This document shows positions 23,754 through 56,146 of a stretch of 64,000 nucleotides of DNA, one piece after another (position 1 is the stretch's first letter; the number at the start of each line of letters is the position of its first letter). The notes under the pieces were generated by a model. The model did not search any database and had not been told where the DNA came from. It saw only the letters and a program-made list of their open reading frames with translations. This stretch comes from an uncultured Lachnospiraceae bacterium (GTDB lineage: Bacteria > Bacillota > Clostridia > Lachnospirales > Lachnospiraceae), in the NCBI GenBank assembly GCA_902789665.1, contig CADAOY010000004.1, positions 558,001-622,000 of the forward strand, written 5' to 3'. Both the position numbers and the translations under genes were made by a program.

Positions 23754-24569
23754 ATGATAATTACTGATGTTCATATGCATACCAATAATTCCGGGGATTC
23801 CCAGGCTCCAATGTCGGATATGGTCTCATCTGCCATAAATAAAGGGCTTAAACATATATGTTTCACAGACCATTATGATATGGACTTTCCTTATACCATT
23901 AATGGCGAAGAAGGAATGTTTGAACTGGATTTGGAGAAATACAGGAAGGATTACGAATCAAATCTTTCCTTATACGGAGACAAAATTGATTTAAATTTCG
24001 GCATTGAACTTGGAATAATGCCGACAACATATGATAAATTAAGAGATTACCTTAAGGACAAACAGTTTGATTTCATCATTGGCTCATCTCATACCTGCAC
24101 CTGCATGGATGTCTACTATCCTGCCATTTATGAAGGAAGAACCGATGTCCAGGTTTTCAATATGTATTTTAGTGAGATATATGATAATATCTGTAATTTC
24201 ACGGATTTTGATATCTATGCTCACCTTGATTATGTTGTAAGATATGCTCCAAATGGTGATGCCAATTATAAATTTAGTAATCATGCGGAAATTTTTGAAG
24301 CCATTCTTAAACGAATTATAGAACTTGGCAAGGGAATCGAACTTAATACCGGTGGTTTAAGAGCCAAGGTAAGCCGAATCAATCCATCTGAAGATGTACT
24401 TAAAATGTACCACTCTTTAGGCGGCGAAATCCTAACAATAGGCGCCGATGCTCACAGGCCTGAGGATGTGGCCCACGAGTTTAAATATGCCGAGGAACTG
24501 CTTAAAGGCATAGGCTTTAAATATCTGGCATATTATAAAAACAGAAAACCTGAATTCATTAAATTATAA
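23754..24569 (+). CDS. hisK: PHP-family phosphatase, probable histidinol-phosphatase
   Basis: This is the only plus-strand gene in the window. The 271-residue metal-dependent PHP phosphatase has metal ligands in DVHMHTNNSGD, CFTDHYDM, FGIELGIMP, SSHTCTC, YAHLDYVVRY and GADAHRPEDVA. HisJ/HisK-type proteins of this size dephosphorylate L-histidinol phosphate, but no histidine gene is nearby, so another phosphoester is possible. AGAGG lies 10 bases before the ATG. It diverges from gap across 191 bases. Confidence 0.82.
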   Translation: MIITDVHMHTNNSGDSQAPMSDMVSSAINKGLKHICFTDHYDMDFPYTINGEEGMFELDLEKYRKDYESNLSLYGDKIDLNFGIELGIMPTTYDKLRDYLKDKQFDFIIGSSHTCTCMDVYYPAIYEGRTDVQVFNMYFSEIYDNICNFTDFDIYAHLDYVVRYAPNGDANYKFSNHAEIFEAILKRIIELGKGIELNTGGLRAKVSRINPSEDVLKMYHSLGGEILTIGADAHRPEDVAHEFKYAEELLKGIGFKYLAYYKNRKPEFIKL

Positions 24570-24610
24570 AATTAAGTCCACTTTATTAAAGACTGATATA
24601 TTCTGCGTTT

Positions 24611-27600
24611 TTACTTATTTATACGAATAAAGTTACAATTCTCTCTGTTTCTTCTTGTATAAATCCACTGTGTAGCAAGTTTCTTGGCAAGATTCAGTCC
24701 AAGAGTTCCTCCTCCATTAGCAGAATCCGGATCAATAAACTTACGCTCCGCAGTAGGATCAAATCCATTGCCATCATCCCAGAAAGCAACAATTACATCA
24801 TTTCCGACTTTTCCACAATAAAACTTAAGATAATTAGCACCGGAAGTTTTCAAAACAACTACAAATAATTCTTCACAGACAAGTTTGGCCTTTGTAGCCA
24901 GAGCAATATCATCAACAGCAGAATCAATAATTTCATTAATATTATCAAGACTGTCTATATTCAAATTAATATCATTAACGGCCATCATATCAGGAGATAT
25001 ATTCCACTCTTTGGCAATTTCTCTCCAGTCTTCACCTTCATGCTCTTCTCCACTCCTTGTTTCCTTGGCATGATAGAATAAATCCTGTTTATTGCTGCTG
25101 TTTGTCTTCTTAAGAGCGGATTTAAATACAATCGACAGCGCTTCATATATAGTCTTTTTCTTAACGATTGCAATTATTATTACAAAAATCAGCAGAATAA
25201 GAAGAATCACAATCACAATCAAAGGAATAAGTACATAATATGCAATATATTTATTTATTGCAGTACAGTATACCTTAAATGTAATATCATTGCCTTCTGC
25301 TTCGAAAACAGCACTGGTTCCATTAACGCTCACATTCTCAACCGGAACCCATGTTTCTCCTTCAAGAATATATACAGCAAATGCTTCTTCAAGATTTACA
25401 CCATAAAAATAGCTGTTAAATCTGATAGTATGTTTATCAAGTCCATCATCCGGAATAATAATATTCGAATAACATATACTATAATTGTTAATATCTTCAT
25501 ATGTATTCTCATCAAGCAGATTATTTACAACCAGTTCGTCCCCTTCTTTAAACTGACCATCAACCATAATCTGTGACTGATGAAGTTCCTCATATTCAGG
25601 ACCGGCAAGGGAACTGACATATTTAGTCATTGTCGCATAAATCTTGGTATCCAGGACAACATTATCCAGTTCTTTATAATCCCAGGATGCGTAATATCCT
25701 TCTTTACCCGGAACATCAGGGTAATCTGACTCTTTCACGGAAGAATTATATGGAATATACATGGTCTTAAGAATAGTCTTTTCGTCAGTATCTTCATCCT
25801 TAAGCACAAATGTAATCTTTATTTTGTCCAAATCAGCCGGCACGAAAACTTCTTCAAGCGTTCCAAGGTCTTCTTCCTTAACAGACTGTGCTTTCATATC
25901 GTAACTGACTTTATTAATACCTGCCAGATTATCTGAAATATAATAATTATTTCTAACAAGACCATCATTTTGAACATTACCTGCTATAGCGCCATACCAG
26001 TCATCACATCCATATATACCTGCAAGAGCAATGGAATTAAGAATATTATATCCATCACCTGTAATACCACCGGCATATTCCCTGGCATAAACATTGCCTC
26101 TGAATGCACAGTTTCTAATATAAGATTTCGATATACCTGCTATACCACCTACATAACTACAGTCTTCACCCATTATGTCAGCATAGCTGATACATTCGGA
26201 TATAACACCTGTTTCCGATCTTCCGCAGATACCGCCAACATAGGACTTATATCCTTCTATATCGCTGTAATTATCAGATGAACGAATTACACACTTCGAT
26301 ATATAAGAACCACCCTTAATAAGCGAGTTAATATCCTTAAATCTGTCAAGAATGGATATATCGCTTTCTATTGACATATTACCGGCAATTCCGCCTGCAT
26401 TTAAATCTGAGCTTACAGCGCCATTGTTATAGCACTTATTAATGCATCCGTCTATACATGTATCAAGAACCTGTACGGACTCATCAGTATAAACATCTTC
26501 AAAACTGTTATCCAAAGCCTTTTCTACGGCATCACTATAAAGAATAAGCACCTTTTCAAACTGATTATTAACTGCAATAAGGTCTTTAACCACAGTCTGA
26601 TTTGCGTTATTGGATTCTGTAATCAGTAAACCGTAATTATCATTAAGACTTCGTAAATTACCACTTAAAGATGAAACATGATTAAAGTAATTGCTGTCAA
26701 GAGTTGGAAAGGCGATATCCACCTTAATGTCTTCTTTTTTAACCTCCGGAACCTGAATATCTGATGTAGTCATATTTCTGATATGATCAGCAAGGTCCTC
26801 CAAAGTCCCCTTCGTGGAGCGAAGGTCTTCTGCCACAGCCTGCAGTTTCTGCCCGGTAGTGGTAGCTGCATTTGATAAGCCATTGGCATAATTAGCTGTA
26901 GAATTCACAATATAGTCAGTATCATTAATTGCGCCGCCTGTAAGCTGCTGCATTACAGTAAGTCTTGAAGAAATAATATCTGATGATGAACCAACATCCT
27001 TTAATGTTTTATCTATCAAATCATGAAGTTCTTCAATTGATGACTTAAGCTGCACACTTGTATCATTGTCTAAATCAATGGTAACATATGGCTCAGCCTG
27101 TCCTACTATTCCACCTACATCTGACTTACCTGTTACTTTTGCATTATTTGTACAGTTATAGATATAGCCGGACTGTCTTCCTGCTATACCGCCTATGTTA
27201 GAGCCAACTTTATCATATCCAACATTTCCATCATTGGTGCTGTTCGCAATAACACCATAGGAAATACCGGCAATACCGCCTATATCAAAGGTTGATAAAT
27301 CAACACCGGAATCAGATTCTTCAGTAACCTTCTGATCAAGAATATTTAGCAGATTAATATTACCTGCATTTGAAATACTGAAAGATGATTCCTGATGCTC
27401 TGTATTAACACTGGAAGAATTGACACATCTGTTAATATTGCCCTTATTCTCTCCTGCAATACCTCCTACAAAATGCTCGCCGCTAATTTTTCCCGAAGAC
27501 TCACAGTCATAAATCTGACCATTAAGTTCATTAAAACCTGCAATACCACCCAAGTAATCTCCTGCCCTGAGATTACCCTTAAATGAGCAGTTTATAATTA

Positions 27601-28228
27601 TTCCTTCGTTATATCCACATAAACCGCCAATATAGAAGCATTCATCATCTTCTGTTATATTACCCTCTACATTAAGACCAATGATAATGGCGTCTTTTTG
27701 AACATAATCAAAGAAACCGGTATATGACCTGTCATTTGCAATATTAATTCCGGATACTGTATATCCCTGGCCATCCCAGATTCCGCCAAAGGTAGGAATA
27801 CCTTCAAAATCAGCCCCTTCAAGTGAAATATCATTATTAAGCTTAATAACCTTATTAAGTGACCAGGAATCAAGTACGCACTCATTGGCTACATCCATAA
27901 GGTCCTGGGCTGTGGAAACAGTTATTGTTTCCCATTCATCCCCTATATTCTCTCTAATGGCAGCTCTTATATCCGCATCAACATCCGACTCTTCTTTTTC
28001 TTCTGCTTCTTTAATCTGGCTTTCAGTCGCAGGAAGACTTTCATCAAGAATCTCCTCTGCACCTGCCTTTAAATCCAGAGCCTCTGTTGCTTCTTCAGAA
28101 ATTTCAGAAGTTTCCATCTCCTCATTAATCTTTGCAGCCTGCAACCTTATGTCAAAAGACATAACGGTATTAAAAATAAGCAAAGCACTTAAGAATAGAT
28201 ATAAAATTGTCTTAAATTTAGTCTTCAT
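24611..28228 (-). CDS. GLUG-repeat surface protein fused to a cytoplasmic RsbW-like ATPase domain
   Basis: The 1205-residue protein has, in order: a signal peptide (1-31); an acidic stretch (33-85); GLUG-type beta-helix repeats built on GGIAG (195-380); a long helical insert with little Gly (390-580); more GLUG repeats (605-760); a beta region (800-990); one membrane helix (994-1023); a linker; and a HATPase domain (about 1085-1205). The last has CEELFVVVL at the N-box, FWDDGNGFDP (G1) and GGGTLGLNLA (G2), as in RsbW/SpoIIAB anti-sigma kinases. The N-box Asn is replaced by Val. CAGGAGCAGGAATAGATG marks the start, overlapping the MMPL gene by 11 bases. A transmembrane sensor is inferred. Confidence 0.8.
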   Translation of the reverse strand: MKTKFKTILYLFLSALLIFNTVMSFDIRLQAAKINEEMETSEISEEATEALDLKAGAEEILDESLPATESQIKEAEEKEESDVDADIRAAIRENIGDEWETITVSTAQDLMDVANECVLDSWSLNKVIKLNNDISLEGADFEGIPTFGGIWDGQGYTVSGINIANDRSYTGFFDYVQKDAIIIGLNVEGNITEDDECFYIGGLCGYNEGIIINCSFKGNLRAGDYLGGIAGFNELNGQIYDCESSGKISGEHFVGGIAGENKGNINRCVNSSSVNTEHQESSFSISNAGNINLLNILDQKVTEESDSGVDLSTFDIGGIAGISYGVIANSTNDGNVGYDKVGSNIGGIAGRQSGYIYNCTNNAKVTGKSDVGGIVGQAEPYVTIDLDNDTSVQLKSSIEELHDLIDKTLKDVGSSSDIISSRLTVMQQLTGGAINDTDYIVNSTANYANGLSNAATTTGQKLQAVAEDLRSTKGTLEDLADHIRNMTTSDIQVPEVKKEDIKVDIAFPTLDSNYFNHVSSLSGNLRSLNDNYGLLITESNNANQTVVKDLIAVNNQFEKVLILYSDAVEKALDNSFEDVYTDESVQVLDTCIDGCINKCYNNGAVSSDLNAGGIAGNMSIESDISILDRFKDINSLIKGGSYISKCVIRSSDNYSDIEGYKSYVGGICGRSETGVISECISYADIMGEDCSYVGGIAGISKSYIRNCAFRGNVYAREYAGGITGDGYNILNSIALAGIYGCDDWYGAIAGNVQNDGLVRNNYYISDNLAGINKVSYDMKAQSVKEEDLGTLEEVFVPADLDKIKITFVLKDEDTDEKTILKTMYIPYNSSVKESDYPDVPGKEGYYASWDYKELDNVVLDTKIYATMTKYVSSLAGPEYEELHQSQIMVDGQFKEGDELVVNNLLDENTYEDINNYSICYSNIIIPDDGLDKHTIRFNSYFYGVNLEEAFAVYILEGETWVPVENVSVNGTSAVFEAEGNDITFKVYCTAINKYIAYYVLIPLIVIVILLILLIFVIIIAIVKKKTIYEALSIVFKSALKKTNSSNKQDLFYHAKETRSGEEHEGEDWREIAKEWNISPDMMAVNDINLNIDSLDNINEIIDSAVDDIALATKAKLVCEELFVVVLKTSGANYLKFYCGKVGNDVIVAFWDDGNGFDPTAERKFIDPDSANGGGTLGLNLAKKLATQWIYTRRNRENCNFIRINK

Positions 28229-30713
28229 CTATTCCTGCTCCTGTATCTTCACCAGCCGATGATTCTTCATGACTGTCATTTTCCTTTGAATCTGTTTCAT
28301 TAAGCGTGGTAATAGCACCGGATTCCACATATGCACTTACATCACCACGTACTTCAGCATTTACTACACCTGTAACAACACCATTGATATGACCTCTAAC
28401 CATACCATTAATACGCATAAGGCCTGATTTTTTCTGACTTGCAACAGGAACCTTTACACTGAAATATGTTCTTTCTATGATTCTGTCACCAACCAAAAGA
28501 ATCTGAGGCAGAACAAACATTGTAATCAAAATGGATATAATTGTACCCCGGCCGATGCACTGTCCTATACCGTAAATAGCCGCATTGGATGTGAATCTGC
28601 CAATAAGGACACCGGCCACAGCCAGCATGGTTCCCGATGTAATAATAGTCGGGAAGCACTGATTCATGGTCTTGATAACTGTCTCTTTACGAAGCATGGT
28701 CTTACGAAGATCCATATATCTGGACGCAATAACAATTGCATAGTCAATATTTGCACCCATCTGAATGGAACTAACAATAAGATATGCAAAGAAGAATAAA
28801 TAATCATGTTTAATTGTCGGTACAGAGAAGTTAATCCAGATACTTCCCTGAATAACAAGTATAAGAAGAATCGGCATTCCGACAGACTTAAATGTAAAGA
28901 GCAAAACTACAAGTACTGTCAGTACTGAAATAATATTTACAACCTTATTATCTCTTATAAAGCACTTATTAAGGTCTATTACGCTGACTGATTCGCCAAC
29001 CACAATAACCTGTTCTTTATCATAATACTTCCCTGCCACATCATGGATGGTATCAAGAAAAGCTGTTGTTTCATCAGATTCCATTGGAAGATTAAGACTT
29101 ACAACAATACGTGAATAATTCTCACCCTTAAGCTGATCTTTGGCATAATTAATCATCTTATGGGCGCTTTCCAAAGTCTCCATCTTTTCATCATCCAAAG
29201 TTACATATCCGGCCTCTACCTCTTCATATATGAAATCAAACATATCAATAAGAGGTACGCTGTAATTGGCAAGACCATTAATAACCTTGCCGTAATCCTC
29301 ATCATTTACAGCATATGCAGTATAAACAAGCTCAGCCACTTCATAATCAAGATTAAGAAGTTCAGCAAACTGTCTCGGAGTCAGTCTGTCAGTAAGACAG
29401 TAATCACCAATTGCCTTGGAATTGGCAAGAGCTGTTATGCTCTTAACCTCATCATATTTCTCAAGTTCACGGATAAGTTCGGCCTCCTTTTCATAACTAA
29501 CCACAGGAACGCAGACAGCAACGATATTGTCTTTACCAAAATTCTCTTTAATTTCATTATTAACCTTCTGCATATCATTGGTTAATGGAGTCTTAATAAG
29601 ACTGCTGCTGTATACAAGCGGAGCCTTGGCTGAAAGGAAATAAGCCACAATAATGGCAACAAAGAATGCCGGAGCAATAATATATCTTGTTTTATAAGCG
29701 AACTTTCCTACAAATGGTATTTCAGGGATAAAGCTCTTATGCTTTGTTTTTTCCATGGCAGATGAAAACCACACAAGAAGACCAGGCATAAGAGTAAATA
29801 CAGAAAGAATACTTAATACTATGGCCTTGATAAGTGTCATACCAAGGTCAGCACCTATTCCGTACTGCATGAACATCATGGCAGCAAGACCACCTACAGT
29901 TGTAAGTGAACTACCGCTGATTTCTGGAATAGCCTTGGAAAGCGCAACGATTGATGCTTCTCTTGGCAACAGTCTGTTGGCTCTCTCCTCTTTATATCTG
30001 TGAAGAAGAATTACAGCATAATCCACAGATAAAGCCAGCTGCAGCACAACCGAAACTGAATTGGAAATAGCAGAAATTGTTCCAAAGAAGAAGTTTGTAC
30101 CCATCTGAACCAGAGCAGCCAGTCCAAATGTAATAAGAAGCACAGGAACTTCTGCATAGGATGTAGATGTCAGTAAAAGAACAACCACAACAATAATAAC
30201 AACCAGAATCTTAATTGGAACCATTTCTTTCTCAAGAAGTTTGGCTCCCTTATTGCCCAGTGATGTCGATAAGGAATAATCATACATCTTGATATATTCT
30301 TCTATTTTTTCCTGGGCTTCAAGACACTTTTCATCTTTCTCATTATATTCAAAAGTTACACTAAGAAGCGCATTGTCATTATTGTAATGCGCCTCATCAT
30401 TGTCATAATCTACCTTGAAAACCCCTTCAATCTTGGAAATATCATCAGCTACAGTTCTGGCCTGAGCATCGGTAATATTATGAAGAACAACACTACATGT
30501 TCCATATGTATTAAACTCTTCATCCATCAAATTAAGACCTCTCTTGGTCTCAGTGGTCTCAGGAAGGTAACTCTCTAAGCTGTATTCAACATTTACCCAG
30601 TTTTTGGAAACTATGCAGAAAAGCACAAGAATAACGCTGATAAGAATGAATAATTTTCTCTTATCAACGATGAATTCGCATATTTTATATAATCCGCCTT
30701 TATCACCCTTCAT
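28218..30713 (-). CDS. MMPL/RND family transporter with tetrapeptide-repeat tail
   Basis: The 831-residue protein repeats the RND half-unit: helix 1 (21-37), an outer loop, then five helices (165-320) with SVDYAVILLHRY and TTVGGLAAMM; a second outer loop; and a matching set with GANIDYAIVIASRYMDLRK. The family exports lipids, peptides or other amphiphiles using the proton gradient. The tail (about 768-805) is a run of four-residue units of the form G-x-V-x (GMVR GHIN GVVT GVVN AEVR GDVS AYVE) followed by an acidic end. The gene overlaps the GLUG-ATPase gene, which is thus likely a partner. Confidence 0.88.
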   Translation of the reverse strand: MKGDKGGLYKICEFIVDKRKLFILISVILVLFCIVSKNWVNVEYSLESYLPETTETKRGLNLMDEEFNTYGTCSVVLHNITDAQARTVADDISKIEGVFKVDYDNDEAHYNNDNALLSVTFEYNEKDEKCLEAQEKIEEYIKMYDYSLSTSLGNKGAKLLEKEMVPIKILVVIIVVVVLLLTSTSYAEVPVLLITFGLAALVQMGTNFFFGTISAISNSVSVVLQLALSVDYAVILLHRYKEERANRLLPREASIVALSKAIPEISGSSLTTVGGLAAMMFMQYGIGADLGMTLIKAIVLSILSVFTLMPGLLVWFSSAMEKTKHKSFIPEIPFVGKFAYKTRYIIAPAFFVAIIVAYFLSAKAPLVYSSSLIKTPLTNDMQKVNNEIKENFGKDNIVAVCVPVVSYEKEAELIRELEKYDEVKSITALANSKAIGDYCLTDRLTPRQFAELLNLDYEVAELVYTAYAVNDEDYGKVINGLANYSVPLIDMFDFIYEEVEAGYVTLDDEKMETLESAHKMINYAKDQLKGENYSRIVVSLNLPMESDETTAFLDTIHDVAGKYYDKEQVIVVGESVSVIDLNKCFIRDNKVVNIISVLTVLVVLLFTFKSVGMPILLILVIQGSIWINFSVPTIKHDYLFFFAYLIVSSIQMGANIDYAIVIASRYMDLRKTMLRKETVIKTMNQCFPTIITSGTMLAVAGVLIGRFTSNAAIYGIGQCIGRGTIISILITMFVLPQILLVGDRIIERTYFSVKVPVASQKKSGLMRINGMVRGHINGVVTGVVNAEVRGDVSAYVESGAITTLNETDSKENDSHEESSAGEDTGAGIDED

Positions 30714-30762
30714 AAAGCGATATATATCTCCAATTCAAAATAAATACACAATATATAGTGGT

Positions 30763-30768
30763 ATTATA
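30763..30768 (-). promoter_or_regulatory. Probable -10 box of the MMPL operon
   Basis: A perfect TATAAT lies about 50 bases before the MMPL start, just after the xerD terminator. No good -35 box is at the right distance (TTTCTT at 17 bases). Confidence 0.35.
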
Positions 30769-30780
30769 CTCCAATGGTAC

Positions 30781-30819
30781 AAAAAAAGAAAGACTTTAGA
30801 ATTAATTCCTAAAGTCTTT
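30781..30819 (-). terminator. Intrinsic terminator of xerD
   Basis: A perfect 11-bp stem AAAGACTTTAG/CTAAAGTCTTT is followed by CTTTTTTTG on the minus strand, 20 bases after the xerD stop. Confidence 0.92.
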
Positions 30820-30839
30820 CATAAAATACCAAAATCAAT

Positions 30840-31724
30840 TTAGCTTCTTGGATGTGCCTTATCATACACATCTCTTAAATGCTTATTCTTCATATTCACA
30901 TAAACCTGAGTTGTGGATATGTCAGAATGACCAAGCATTTCCTGAACAGATCTTAAATCTGCTCCATTGTCTACCAGATGAGCTGCAAAAGAATGTCTTA
31001 AGGTATGCGGAGTAATATCTGCCGCAATTCCTGCCTTATCAGAATAAGCCTTAATTATCTTCCAGAAGCCCTGTCTTGTCATCAAACCGCCATTGCAGTT
31101 AACAAAAAGATAATCGCTTTCTCCTGTAAGGAGCACTTTTCTTGAGTTTGCCACATAATCCATAAGCGCTTTCTTGGCTTTTGAATTAAATGGAATGGTT
31201 CTACTCTTCTTTCCGCTTCCTATGGTTATAACACCAAGGCCTAATTCCACGTCTTCGTTCTTAAGATTAATAAGTTCACTTACACGAATACCTGTGGCAT
31301 ACATAAGCTCAAGCATTGCTCTGTCTCTGATAGCTTTAGGTGAGTCGCCTTTTGGCTGGCTAAGGAGAAGATCAACATCCTTTTCAGAAAGGATTTCAGG
31401 TGCTTTTTTTTCAACCTTTGGTGCTTTTAACTTAAGTGTTATATCATCTGAGCAGATTTTATTATTAATTAAATATCTCCAAAAAGATTTAGCACATGCT
31501 ACAAATCTTGAAACAGAAGCTGCAGCAAAATTGCCGTCGGTCAAATATCCGATATAATCTTCCAGATCCTTATCTGTAACCTTGTCCCAACTCTGAATTC
31601 CCTTTTCGTTTTTAAGGTAATTCATAAGTTTGGTCAAATCTCTTTTATAAGATAATTCAGTATTGAGTGACATCTTTTTGATATCACGCATATATACTAT
31701 AAACGCCTCAATATGCTCCAGCAT
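30840..31724 (-). CDS. xerD: Site-specific tyrosine recombinase XerD
   Basis: The 294-residue integrase-family recombinase resolves chromosome dimers at dif. The N-terminal SAM-like domain reads AFIVYMRDIKKMSLNTELSY; catalytic residues are Arg in ATGIRVSELINL, Lys in GSGKKSRTIP, HTLRHSFAAHL (His-x-x-Arg), LGHSDISTTQ (His) and the nucleophile Tyr in VYVNM. Length and the R/K/H/R/H/Y set fit XerD rather than a phage integrase, and no mobile-element genes flank it. AAGGGGTATTAAATG marks the start. Confidence 0.93.
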   Translation of the reverse strand: MLEHIEAFIVYMRDIKKMSLNTELSYKRDLTKLMNYLKNEKGIQSWDKVTDKDLEDYIGYLTDGNFAAASVSRFVACAKSFWRYLINNKICSDDITLKLKAPKVEKKAPEILSEKDVDLLLSQPKGDSPKAIRDRAMLELMYATGIRVSELINLKNEDVELGLGVITIGSGKKSRTIPFNSKAKKALMDYVANSRKVLLTGESDYLFVNCNGGLMTRQGFWKIIKAYSDKAGIAADITPHTLRHSFAAHLVDNGADLRSVQEMLGHSDISTTQVYVNMKNKHLRDVYDKAHPRS

Positions 31725-47006: not shown

Positions 47007-48062
47007 TCAGCGACGCCTTCTGTCGTGCAATTTATAATATTCTGATTTATTCTTATACATCTTTGTTTCTGCCGAAACAACAAGATTATTTATATCCAGA
47101 TTACTGGCACTTGCCACCTCATATCCAACTGCCATATGGAAGCCTTTATCTTCCACATTTTTGATGATGGTGGCGATTTTGGAAGAGATGCTTTCTTCAG
47201 CCATGTCGAGTGAGAATGCCACGAATTCATCACCACCAATTCTGTATGAATCATAAATTCCAAAAGCAGTTTTAAGTTCATCAGCTATGGTCTTAAGCAT
47301 TAAGTCGCCCTTCTCATGACCTTCTGTATTATTAAGCTGATGAAGGCCGTTGCCGTCAATATAGATACAGCAGATTTTGTCCTTCGCCCTGCCTTTGTAA
47401 TCTTTTAATCTCCACTCATAGCAGTTACGGTTATTAAGACCGGTAAGCTGATCAAGTTCGCTCATCTTCTGCAGTTTATTCTCAAGAACAAAACCGTTAA
47501 TCCTGTTCATTGTAACTATTGTTGAGCATGATGCTGACAAAAGACCATATATTACTGCATTGGTTAAATCCGAATAAAGCACGGAACCTGTTTTGGTTCT
47601 GGCTACCAGAATAAGAAAAACTACGACATAAAAGCCAAGGCATGAAATGATTCTAAGGGGTTTATCAACAAAAATCATCGGCAGCAGAACAAGCATAACC
47701 AGGAAGGTTGCTGCCTGCTGTTCAGGCCTTGAATATACTGCAATTGCGATACCATATAAAAGGAATATGGTGAAAGAAAAATAAATTGCAATATAAGAAA
47801 GTATACGAATTTTCTCCGAATAAAGGGAAATAATTATTAGTGCCAGAGAACACAGCATTCCACTTACAAATATACTTCTTGAACTTGCAAATCCTTCAAG
47901 AACAAAAGACATAACAAACATAATGCACACCAAAACAAAAGCAACAGATGAATAAATCATAACTGTCCTTGCATTAGTCTTTTCTATCTTTCTTCTGATT
48001 AAATTGTAAGTTTCCTTATCTGTTCCACCGTACAGACAAATGTTCTTGATTTTTTGAAACAT
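47007..48062 (-). CDS. Membrane diguanylate cyclase (GGDEF domain)
   Basis: The 351-residue protein has about six membrane helices (32-190) and a GGDEF domain (about 200-345) with DQLTGLNNRNCYEWRL, YIDGNGLHQLNN and the intact active site RIGGDEFVAF. It should make cyclic di-GMP from GTP. The inhibitory I-site RxxD five residues before the motif is absent (GIYDSYR), so product inhibition may be weak. There is no known sensory fold. It follows queA by 11 bases and ends the pheST-pepM18-queA run. Confidence 0.9.
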   Translation of the reverse strand: MFQKIKNICLYGGTDKETYNLIRRKIEKTNARTVMIYSSVAFVLVCIMFVMSFVLEGFASSRSIFVSGMLCSLALIIISLYSEKIRILSYIAIYFSFTIFLLYGIAIAVYSRPEQQAATFLVMLVLLPMIFVDKPLRIISCLGFYVVVFLILVARTKTGSVLYSDLTNAVIYGLLSASCSTIVTMNRINGFVLENKLQKMSELDQLTGLNNRNCYEWRLKDYKGRAKDKICCIYIDGNGLHQLNNTEGHEKGDLMLKTIADELKTAFGIYDSYRIGGDEFVAFSLDMAEESISSKIATIIKNVEDKGFHMAVGYEVASASNLDINNLVVSAETKMYKNKSEYYKLHDRRRR

Positions 48063-48073
48063 ACATTCCCCGA

Positions 48074-49126
48074 TTAAATCATCTCATCCGTTATAAACAT
48101 TGCATCACCAAAAGAGAAGAATCTGTATCTTTCCTTCACGGCTTCATTATAGGCATTAAGCACATTCTCTCTTCCTGCCAGTGCACTTACAAGCATAATA
48201 AGTGTAGACTCCGGCAAATGGAAATTGGTAATAAGACAGTCAAGAATCTTAAACTTATAACCCGGATATATAAAAATCTCCGTATTACCACTACATGCCT
48301 TAATTAATCCATTGTCATCAGCTGCGCTTTCTACTGTTCTGCAGCTTGTGGTACCAACGCATATAACTCTGCCGCCATTTCTCTTGGTTTCATTTATTAT
48401 ATCGGCACTTTCTTCAGAAATTACATAATATTCTGAATGCATATGGTGATCAAGGATATTATCTTCCTTTACAGGTCTGAATGTTCCAAGTCCCACATGC
48501 AGGGTTACATAGGCAATTTTGATACCTTTTTTCTCAATCTCAGCAAGTAGCTCTTTGGTAAAATGAAGCCCCGCAGTTGGCGCTGCAGCCGAACCATCGA
48601 ACTTCGCATATACTGTCTGATATCTGTTTTTATCCTGTAATTTATGAGTTATATACGGAGGCAGAGGCATCTGGCCGATTTTATCCAGAATCTCTTCGAA
48701 TATGCCATCATATTCGAATTCGATTTCTCTGTTTCCTTCTTCTAATATATTAACAATTTTACCTTTTAGCAAGCCTTCACCAAAAATAAATTCATCACCC
48801 GGTTTTGCTTTTTTGCCCGGCTTACAAAGGCACTCCCAGTTAGTATCGGAAAGCCTTTTTAATAAAAGGAATTCCACTGATGCTCCGCTTCCCACCTTCG
48901 TTGCATAAATTCTTGCAGGAATAACTTTGGTATCATTAAGAACAAGGCAGTCACCTTCATGAAGATAATTAATAATATCTTTAAATACATGATGGCTTAT
49001 GCTGCCGTTGTCCTTATTTAAAACCATAAGTCTTGAAGAACTTCTGTCTGTCAAAGGGTCCTGAGCAATCAGTTCTTCCGGAAGTTCATAATTAAAATCT
49101 GATTTTAGTAAAATATTATCTGACAT
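48074..49126 (-). CDS. queA: tRNA preQ1(34) S-adenosylmethionine ribosyltransferase-isomerase
   Basis: The enzyme transfers and isomerises the ribose of S-adenosylmethionine to preQ1 in tRNA, giving epoxyqueuosine. Marks are [76 protein letters not shown] and [12 protein letters not shown]. Its 350 residues are normal. Its ATG directly abuts the aminopeptidase stop, and no clear ribosome binding site is seen, so translation is coupled. Confidence 0.96.
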
Positions 49127-55696: not shown

Positions 55697-56146
55697 TTAA
55701 GTTTCTGATTCTTTTTTCTTTTTTAATTTTACCAGTAATAAATAGACAATCGCAATACCCAGAATAGCTCCAAAAGAGTCTATGTAAACATCTGATATCA
55801 TTGATCCTCTTCCGGAAAAAAGTTGTATTGTTTCATCAATAAATCCGGTAAAAAATCCTATCAGCCAGCACAGATACCATCTGTAATTTTTCTTATCAAT
55901 AAAGAGTAACATCCACTCTGCACCGATAACAAAATATTCAGTAACATGTGCAGCTTTTCTGATCAGGCTTTCAGGAATTTCAATAGGTTTTCCTTCCTGA
56001 ACATTGGCTATGTTATTTATTACTTCTTCAAGAATTTCTTTAATTGTTCCACTCTCTTCCTGGGACTGTGGAATTGGAAGCATCGACTGTCCCCAGGCAA
56101 AGAAAGTTGAAATAATGATTAAAGCAATTATTATTTTAGTTTTCAT
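55697..56146 (-). CDS. VanZ family protein
   Basis: The 149-residue membrane protein starts with a signal-anchor helix (MKTKIIIALIIISTFFAWGQ) and carries the VanZ core: RKAAHVTEYFVIGAEWML, FFTGFIDETIQLFSGRGSMISD and a last helix. VanZ members give low teicoplanin resistance in some clusters, but in general their role is unknown and no resistance genes are near. The start lacks a ribosome binding site and lies one base from the stop of the Na/Pi gene, so it is coupled. Confidence 0.9.
   Translation of the reverse strand: MKTKIIIALIIISTFFAWGQSMLPIPQSQEESGTIKEILEEVINNIANVQEGKPIEIPESLIRKAAHVTEYFVIGAEWMLLFIDKKNYRWYLCWLIGFFTGFIDETIQLFSGRGSMISDVYIDSFGAILGIAIVYLLLVKLKKKKESET

Follow-up and report, generated by a model that had tools for sequence, protein, structure and literature searches.

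A GLUG-repeat surface protein with a C-terminal HATPase domain, encoded beside an MMPL/RND exporter in an uncultured Lachnospiraceae bacterium

The anti-sigma kinases RsbW and SpoIIAB are normally soluble and are encoded with STAS and sigma genes, while membrane-bound SpoIIE-type phosphatases join a membrane part to a HATPase domain. Among the Gram-positive MMPL/RND exporters, FarE belongs to the MMPL type. FarE of Staphylococcus aureus is described as pumping fatty acids out of the cell, with FarR as its TetR-type regulator (PMC10019231, PMC12671165). Here, we describe a locus that shares parts with each of these systems. It lies in a stretch of 64,000 nucleotides from an uncultured Lachnospiraceae bacterium (GenBank assembly GCA_902789665.1, contig CADAOY010000004.1, positions 558,001 to 622,000), referred to as the window, and consists of a gene for a GLUG-repeat surface protein with a C-terminal HATPase domain (24611..28228, minus strand) and an overlapping gene for an MMPL/RND transporter.

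The locus resembles FarE/FarR in its MMPL transporter and in the TetR-type regulators of related loci: of 45 such loci, 13 seemed by eye to have a TetR-type gene within two genes of the pair, and 12 of these were confirmed, giving a count of at least 12. It differs in that the transporter has a GLUG surface partner, which carries a HATPase tail in this lineage, and in that no TetR gene adjoins the window pair. SpoIIE-type phosphatases are, with free-standing HATPases, the closest HATPase relatives that we found, but a PP2C domain was present in all eight that were scanned (HAMP exceeded its cut-off in two of the eight), whereas the window protein has no PP2C domain and its outer part is made of GLUG repeats. 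RsbW and SpoIIAB belong to the same domain family by profile, and the window tail keeps their glutamate base and G1 motif; unlike them, it lacks the N-box asparagine, and in both alleles the domain is fused behind a membrane helix. A scaffold broken by a probable coiled coil and paired with an RND pump also recalls the RND periplasmic adaptors, by analogy only, the scaffold here being made of GLUG repeats; no RND adaptor family was among the matches listed for 41 members (25 families of 42 for Pfam and of 30 for NCBIfam). The component parts are of kinds already known, and their combination is new. Nothing describing the MMPL-GLUG pairing or the HATPase fusion appeared in the titles and abstract openings covered by our literature search, which took in few subscription papers.

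Architecture of the GLUG-HATPase protein

The open reading frame (ORF) has an ATG start and encodes 1205 residues; all of its parts are read on the minus strand. A signal peptide covers residues 1 to about 32 (28133..28228; hydrophobic stretch 5-23, cleavage site placed by eye), followed by a first GLUG block (residues 99-390, 27059..27934, with repeats starting at 201-372), an insert of about 200 residues (391-592, 26453..27058), a second GLUG block (593-785, 25874..26452), and a pre-membrane region (786-990, 25259..25873) in which P837 and W849 are invariant in 41 homologues. The repeats match PF07581 at 48.8 bits (cut-off 20.5) over five stretches. The pattern GG[ILV][AVCTS]G starts 10 times, six times in 201-372 and four times in 612-720, whereas 2000 shuffles averaged 0.05 starts and never exceeded 2. 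The same fusion is present in Lachnospiraceae bacterium UBA4338 (genome G300), with 52% identity overall (51.5% for the gene), 48% identity in the HATPase domain, and 16 of the last 18 residues identical.

The insert is likely a helical coiled coil. In homologues, the corresponding region is hit by generic models of coiled coils (SMC_prok_B in 14 of 41 members, MCE in 10 of 41), although the window copy matches no coiled-coil model at E 0.01 and its helix propensity, crudely estimated, is not distinctive. Hits of the insert to proteins such as myosin and SMC were discarded, being of a generic coiled-coil kind. A membrane helix follows at residues 1000-1024, approximately (25157..25231), with a mean hydropathy of 4.06 over 1004-1022, and the KKK directly after it suggests that the C-terminus, about 180 residues behind the helix, lies inside the cell. 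These residues comprise a probable cytoplasmic linker (1025-1085, 24974..25156), in which LFYHAKE and EGxDWR..KEWN are common to the window and UBA4338 proteins, and the HATPase_c_2-type domain (1086-1205, 24614..24973). The initial annotation of this gene had read a signal peptide, two repeat blocks split by an insert, and a single membrane helix from the letters alone, and hydropathy, PF07581, and the comparison of repeat counts with shuffles bear this out. Three of 41 homologue loci (L055, L059, and L068) show no last membrane helix at the hydropathy threshold used. One further homologue (L066, 6539-11152) extends about 420 residues past its last membrane helix with no match to the HATPase model, a second and different tail.

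An RsbW-like HATPase at the C-terminus had likewise been proposed, and it was recovered by a custom profile but not at Pfam cut-offs. HATPase_c matches the whole window protein at E 0.11, below the cut-off, and the tail alone scores 17.3 bits against HATPase_c (cut-off 26.4) and 14.3 bits against HATPase_c_2 (cut-off 27.4); the UBA4338 tail reaches 27.0 bits against the latter. A hidden Markov model (HMM) of nine nonfused HATPases, four SpoIIE C-termini and five free-standing proteins, matches the window tail at E 7.2e-20 (67 bits) and the UBA4338 tail at 4.6e-19 (65 bits), compared with 0.17 for the best of 1000 shuffled tails and 0.79 for the best unrelated window ORF. Seven of the nine training rows had themselves been picked up by similarity to the window protein, which biases the test somewhat in its favor. 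With hhalign, the window tail alone gave 99.2%. An 11-row profile including both tails matches RsbW (6m36, 6e-8) and SpoIIAB (1tid, 3e-5), but because it contains the nine relatives, the match speaks to the kinship of the family rather than of the window tail itself. PDB sequence searches with the window protein, a two-row tail profile, or the UBA4338 tail returned chance matches only. Judged by these profile comparisons, the window tail is a real HATPase related to RsbW, SpoIIAB, and the C-terminal ATPase of SpoIIE. Some of the free HATPase relatives adjoin STAS genes (L079 and L080).

Of the two motifs named in the initial annotation, G1 (DDGNGFDP, residues 1151-1158) is canonical and G2 is loose, and an altered N-box had been overlooked. 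The window N-box reads EELFVVVLKTSG and lacks its asparagine (EELFVVVLKTS, compared with EEIFVNICNYS in UBA4338, which keeps both the N-box and G1 motifs). In SpoIIAB, Glu46 serves as the catalytic base, and Mg is chelated by Asn50 (PMC10345196). Among 24 distinct HATPase domains, collected with the same HMM and hence with a model trained on Asn-bearing rows, the glutamate is present in all 24 (Glu1120 in the window) and the asparagine in 23, UBA4338 included; the sole exception is the window, with Val1124. Val1124 could conceivably be a sequencing error, although the neighboring N-box residues differ as well. The loss of the residue that holds Mg favors binding over catalysis in the window species, and a binding or tethering domain is a likelier reading of this tail than a kinase.

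The tail is probably functional in both alleles. Over residues 1101-1200, the nonsynonymous divergence between the window and UBA4338 (pN 0.35) falls well below the silent-site divergence (pS 0.68), which points to purifying selection and so to a tail that probably does something in each. The contrary view, that the tail is the relic of a fusion that arose by chance and is being lost, would fit its occurrence in only two of the genomes searched and the changed N-box in one of them. However, both the frame and the 48% domain identity have been kept despite saturated silent sites, the last residues are nearly identical, and the two tails score almost equally against the HMM (67 and 65 bits), so that we regard a relic as improbable.

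The fusion is conserved in a second species but rare, being found in two genomes only. Eight of 31 genomes of the genus match the window protein, two of them (its own genome and UBA4338) over nearly its full length. A profile of both tails, run on samples of 397 family genomes (without G300) and 395 relatives, which overlap with each other and with the phylum sample below, found no other protein of comparable length in the former and only G300 again in the latter. In the phylum sample of 398, six other genomes match, with no HATPase tail in the five with a readable C-terminus. The family search also returned weaker HATPase matches in several long frames of 531-880 residues, and the six that were scanned are all SpoIIE phosphatases; the negative result covers proteins of comparable length, and a shorter fusion is possible among the unscanned frames, all under 900 residues. 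A scan of named genomes gave no match with the window protein alone and one locus, that of UBA4338, with an alignment of the pair.

Pairing with an MMPL/RND exporter gene

Immediately upstream of the GLUG-HATPase gene, and overlapping it by 11 bases, is a gene for an 831-residue MMPL/RND transporter (28218..30713, minus strand; PF03176, E 1.1e-45, 156.5 bits against a cut-off of 20.5, in two stretches). A hairpin with a T run and then a TATAAT-like box, found by eye at 30713-30843 ahead of the MMPL gene, suggests that it has its own promoter. In the family, the surface protein has matches at E 0.001 in 98 of 299 genomes, in many of them by the GLUG repeats alone. Where the homologue is long, an MMPL gene lies directly upstream in 40 of 41 loci, or in 45 of 46 on the same strand when five genus loci are added, and outside the family it is upstream in all five loci in which that part is readable. 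The single long homologue among the 41 with no adjoining MMPL gene is at L061 (7041-9794). In G205, the pair is in pieces and apparently decayed (L085); as a broken pair, it was excluded from all counts.

The HATPase is absent from all 45 unfused homologues checked. The initial annotation had allowed that homologues might prove to be split into two unrelated proteins, and these 45 are unsplit. The near-constant MMPL neighbor, together with unfused homologues that carry no HATPase, indicates that the basic role of the surface protein is probably that of partner to the MMPL exporter, and the pairing of the genes is what suggests a complex of the two products. The TetR neighbors, which resemble the FarE/FarR arrangement, make export of a lipid-like compound the likely basic function, the cargo being proposed by analogy. 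Signaling cannot be the basic function, as the unfused homologues have no tail. The earlier picture had missed both the overlapping MMPL gene, which points to export, and the lost asparagine, which argues against a working kinase in this copy.

In trees of the MMPL and GLUG proteins (FastTree only), the fused pair is sister to L038 and L039, which belong to other genera, with support of 94 and 99; the unfused pairs found within its own genus are more distant. Because its closest relatives lie in other genera, the MMPL-GLUG pair was probably acquired from outside the genus.

A divergent tract around the MMPL-GLUG pair

The window is collinear with UBA4338 across all 50 ORFs compared (non-overlapping, at least 100 residues, a few compared in part), 40 of them at 94% protein identity or more and 41 with pS of 0.26 or less (median about 0.17). 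The pair stands apart from this background, at 51.5% identity and pS 0.70 for the GLUG-HATPase gene and 62.0% and pS 0.69 for the MMPL gene. Together they occupy a tract of about 6.5 kb (24375..30845, no strand) at both ends of which identity to UBA4338 drops sharply. One edge, near 24,375, is inside a gene for a PHP-domain (HisJ-like) phosphatase (23754..24569, plus strand) at about codon 208, leaving its last 63 codons or so within the tract. The other, near 30,845, is at the end of a tyrosine recombinase gene (30840..31724, minus strand, PF00589), which we take to be XerC/D-like. Silent divergence is 0.10 in the recombinase gene and 0.16 in PHP codons 101-200, compared with about 0.7 inside the tract; in PHP codons 1-100, it is somewhat raised, at 0.28.

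Saturated silent sites bounded by sharp edges argue for replacement rather than fast selection, and an allele of about 6.5 kb was probably exchanged between close relatives by homologous recombination. Surface proteins do often evolve fast, yet selection driving fast change at this one site, with no recombination, is very improbable here, given that silent as well as protein divergence jumps and that both boundaries are abrupt, the one inside the PHP gene included. The donor of the tract probably shared this gene order, since the end of the PHP gene came with it.

The PHP gene is present in 27 of 31 genomes of the genus. Around it, 20 genus loci were read, with MMPL, GLUG, or HATPase-tail matches in none. 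The recombinase gene is its direct neighbor in 12 of the 20, is separated from it by one gene in five and by several in one (G120), and falls outside the stretch read in two; in all 18 loci with both flanks read, the MMPL-GLUG pair is absent from the site. Given its absence from the site at these loci, the pair probably arrived there in the lineage to which the window species and UBA4338 belong, with the exchange coming later.

Besides the pair, six window genes have pS of at least 0.37, PHP included, and the five others reach at least 0.49. The tract is therefore not unique, although a VanZ-like gene (55700-56146; 66%, pS 0.70) is the only one of them to equal its protein divergence; this gene adjoins one at 98% and is possibly another swapped allele. 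A GGDEF gene (79%, pS 0.58) and a neighboring queuosine-synthesis gene (94%, pS 0.56) at 47010-49126 also exceed background divergence.

Candidate roles of the HATPase tail

The initial annotation had proposed that the protein couples an outside binding event to partner switching. We ran our own models for STAS, SpoIIE/PP2C, and HATPase on 46 GLUG loci (764,604 bases) and the window. On loci known to carry these genes, the models recovered all nine of the STAS, all nine of the SpoIIE, and eight of the nine HATPase cases, some control rows being identical or close to training rows. No STAS gene and no SpoIIE/PP2C gene was found in the 46 loci or the window, sigma genes not having been searched for. 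The membrane-anchored surface protein with an RsbW/SpoIIE-type HATPase probably inside the cell stands, and recurs in a second species, whereas the link to partner switching gains no support from its gene neighborhood. Besides the two fused domains, the HATPase model found one free-standing protein, encoded in L077 (3989-4468) by an HATPase_c_2 gene three genes downstream of the MMPL-GLUG pair on the same strand, past WapI-like and Rce1-like genes. About one HATPase is expected by chance in 764,604 bases (six genomes, about 14.3 Mb, contain 19 matches over the cut-off), and a reading of this gene as a split fusion was rejected because a single find equals that expectation.

Elsewhere in the window's genome are four SpoIIE, four STAS, and three HATPase matches over the cut-off and one HATPase match under it. 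All three families are present in five of five same-genus genomes compared, among which only UBA4338 has the fusion. Partner-switching components exist in the genome, but nothing that we found ties them to the GLUG-HATPase protein. In the same genome, a SpoIIE gene sits beside a free HATPase gene, with a 1812-residue ORF farther along (L128, 6933-9146). At L130 (4384-5353), a STAS gene directly follows an ORF (220 residues as listed) that has no Pfam match; the UBA4338 counterpart of this ORF (L137, 5902-6796) has an LLAEEM stretch and could be a divergent HATPase.

The tail might be a working kinase of the anti-sigma type, one that phosphorylates a STAS protein upon surface engagement; in its favor are the SpoIIE and STAS genes elsewhere in the genome and the canonical N-box and G1 motif of the UBA4338 allele. 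We consider such a kinase unlikely, since the window allele has valine at a position held by asparagine in every other domain compared and none of the 46 loci contains a STAS or SpoIIE gene. The latter observation, together with the attachment of the tail to an exporter partner and the retained N-box and G1 of UBA4338, would suit a HATPase that has no part in signaling and binds ATP or ADP so as to gate or assemble the exporter complex from inside. To this, we give similarly low credence: the Mg-binding asparagine is missing in the window allele, the established function of related domains is partner switching, and unfused homologues have no HATPase.

The reading that we prefer, with a probability of about 0.45, is that of a dedicated exporter partner whose HATPase tail holds and releases a soluble partner. 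The protein would be a single-pass surface protein whose outer GLUG scaffold, broken by a probable coiled coil, sits with the MMPL/RND exporter. Its inner tail would have gained, in one lineage, a HATPase related to the SpoIIE C-terminal domain and to free RsbW-like proteins. Depending on the state of the outer complex, the tail would retain a soluble partner, either a STAS protein or a sigma-like factor, at the exporter or release it. The window allele would probably do so by binding, its kinase activity being weak or absent. Three observations count against this proposal: the lack of STAS and SpoIIE/PP2C genes at the loci searched, the unfused homologues that do without the tail, and the N-box asparagine kept by all compared domains except that of the window.

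More speculative, and rather doubtful in our view, is an exporter that reports on itself. The MMPL transporter and its surface partner would make up a single complex, and gene expression would be set directly by export status or by binding outside the cell, through the release or retention of a STAS- or sigma-type regulator by the tail; the outer alleles would be swapped between species as at a surface-recognition locus, and some alleles would bind only, with no kinase step.

The pairing of an MMPL exporter with a GLUG surface protein recurs in this family of bacteria and beyond. The one lineage in which the exporter partner gained a switch domain offers a natural experiment on whether exporters can signal, and the sharply bounded allele exchange suggests that the pair encounters a variable factor outside the cell.

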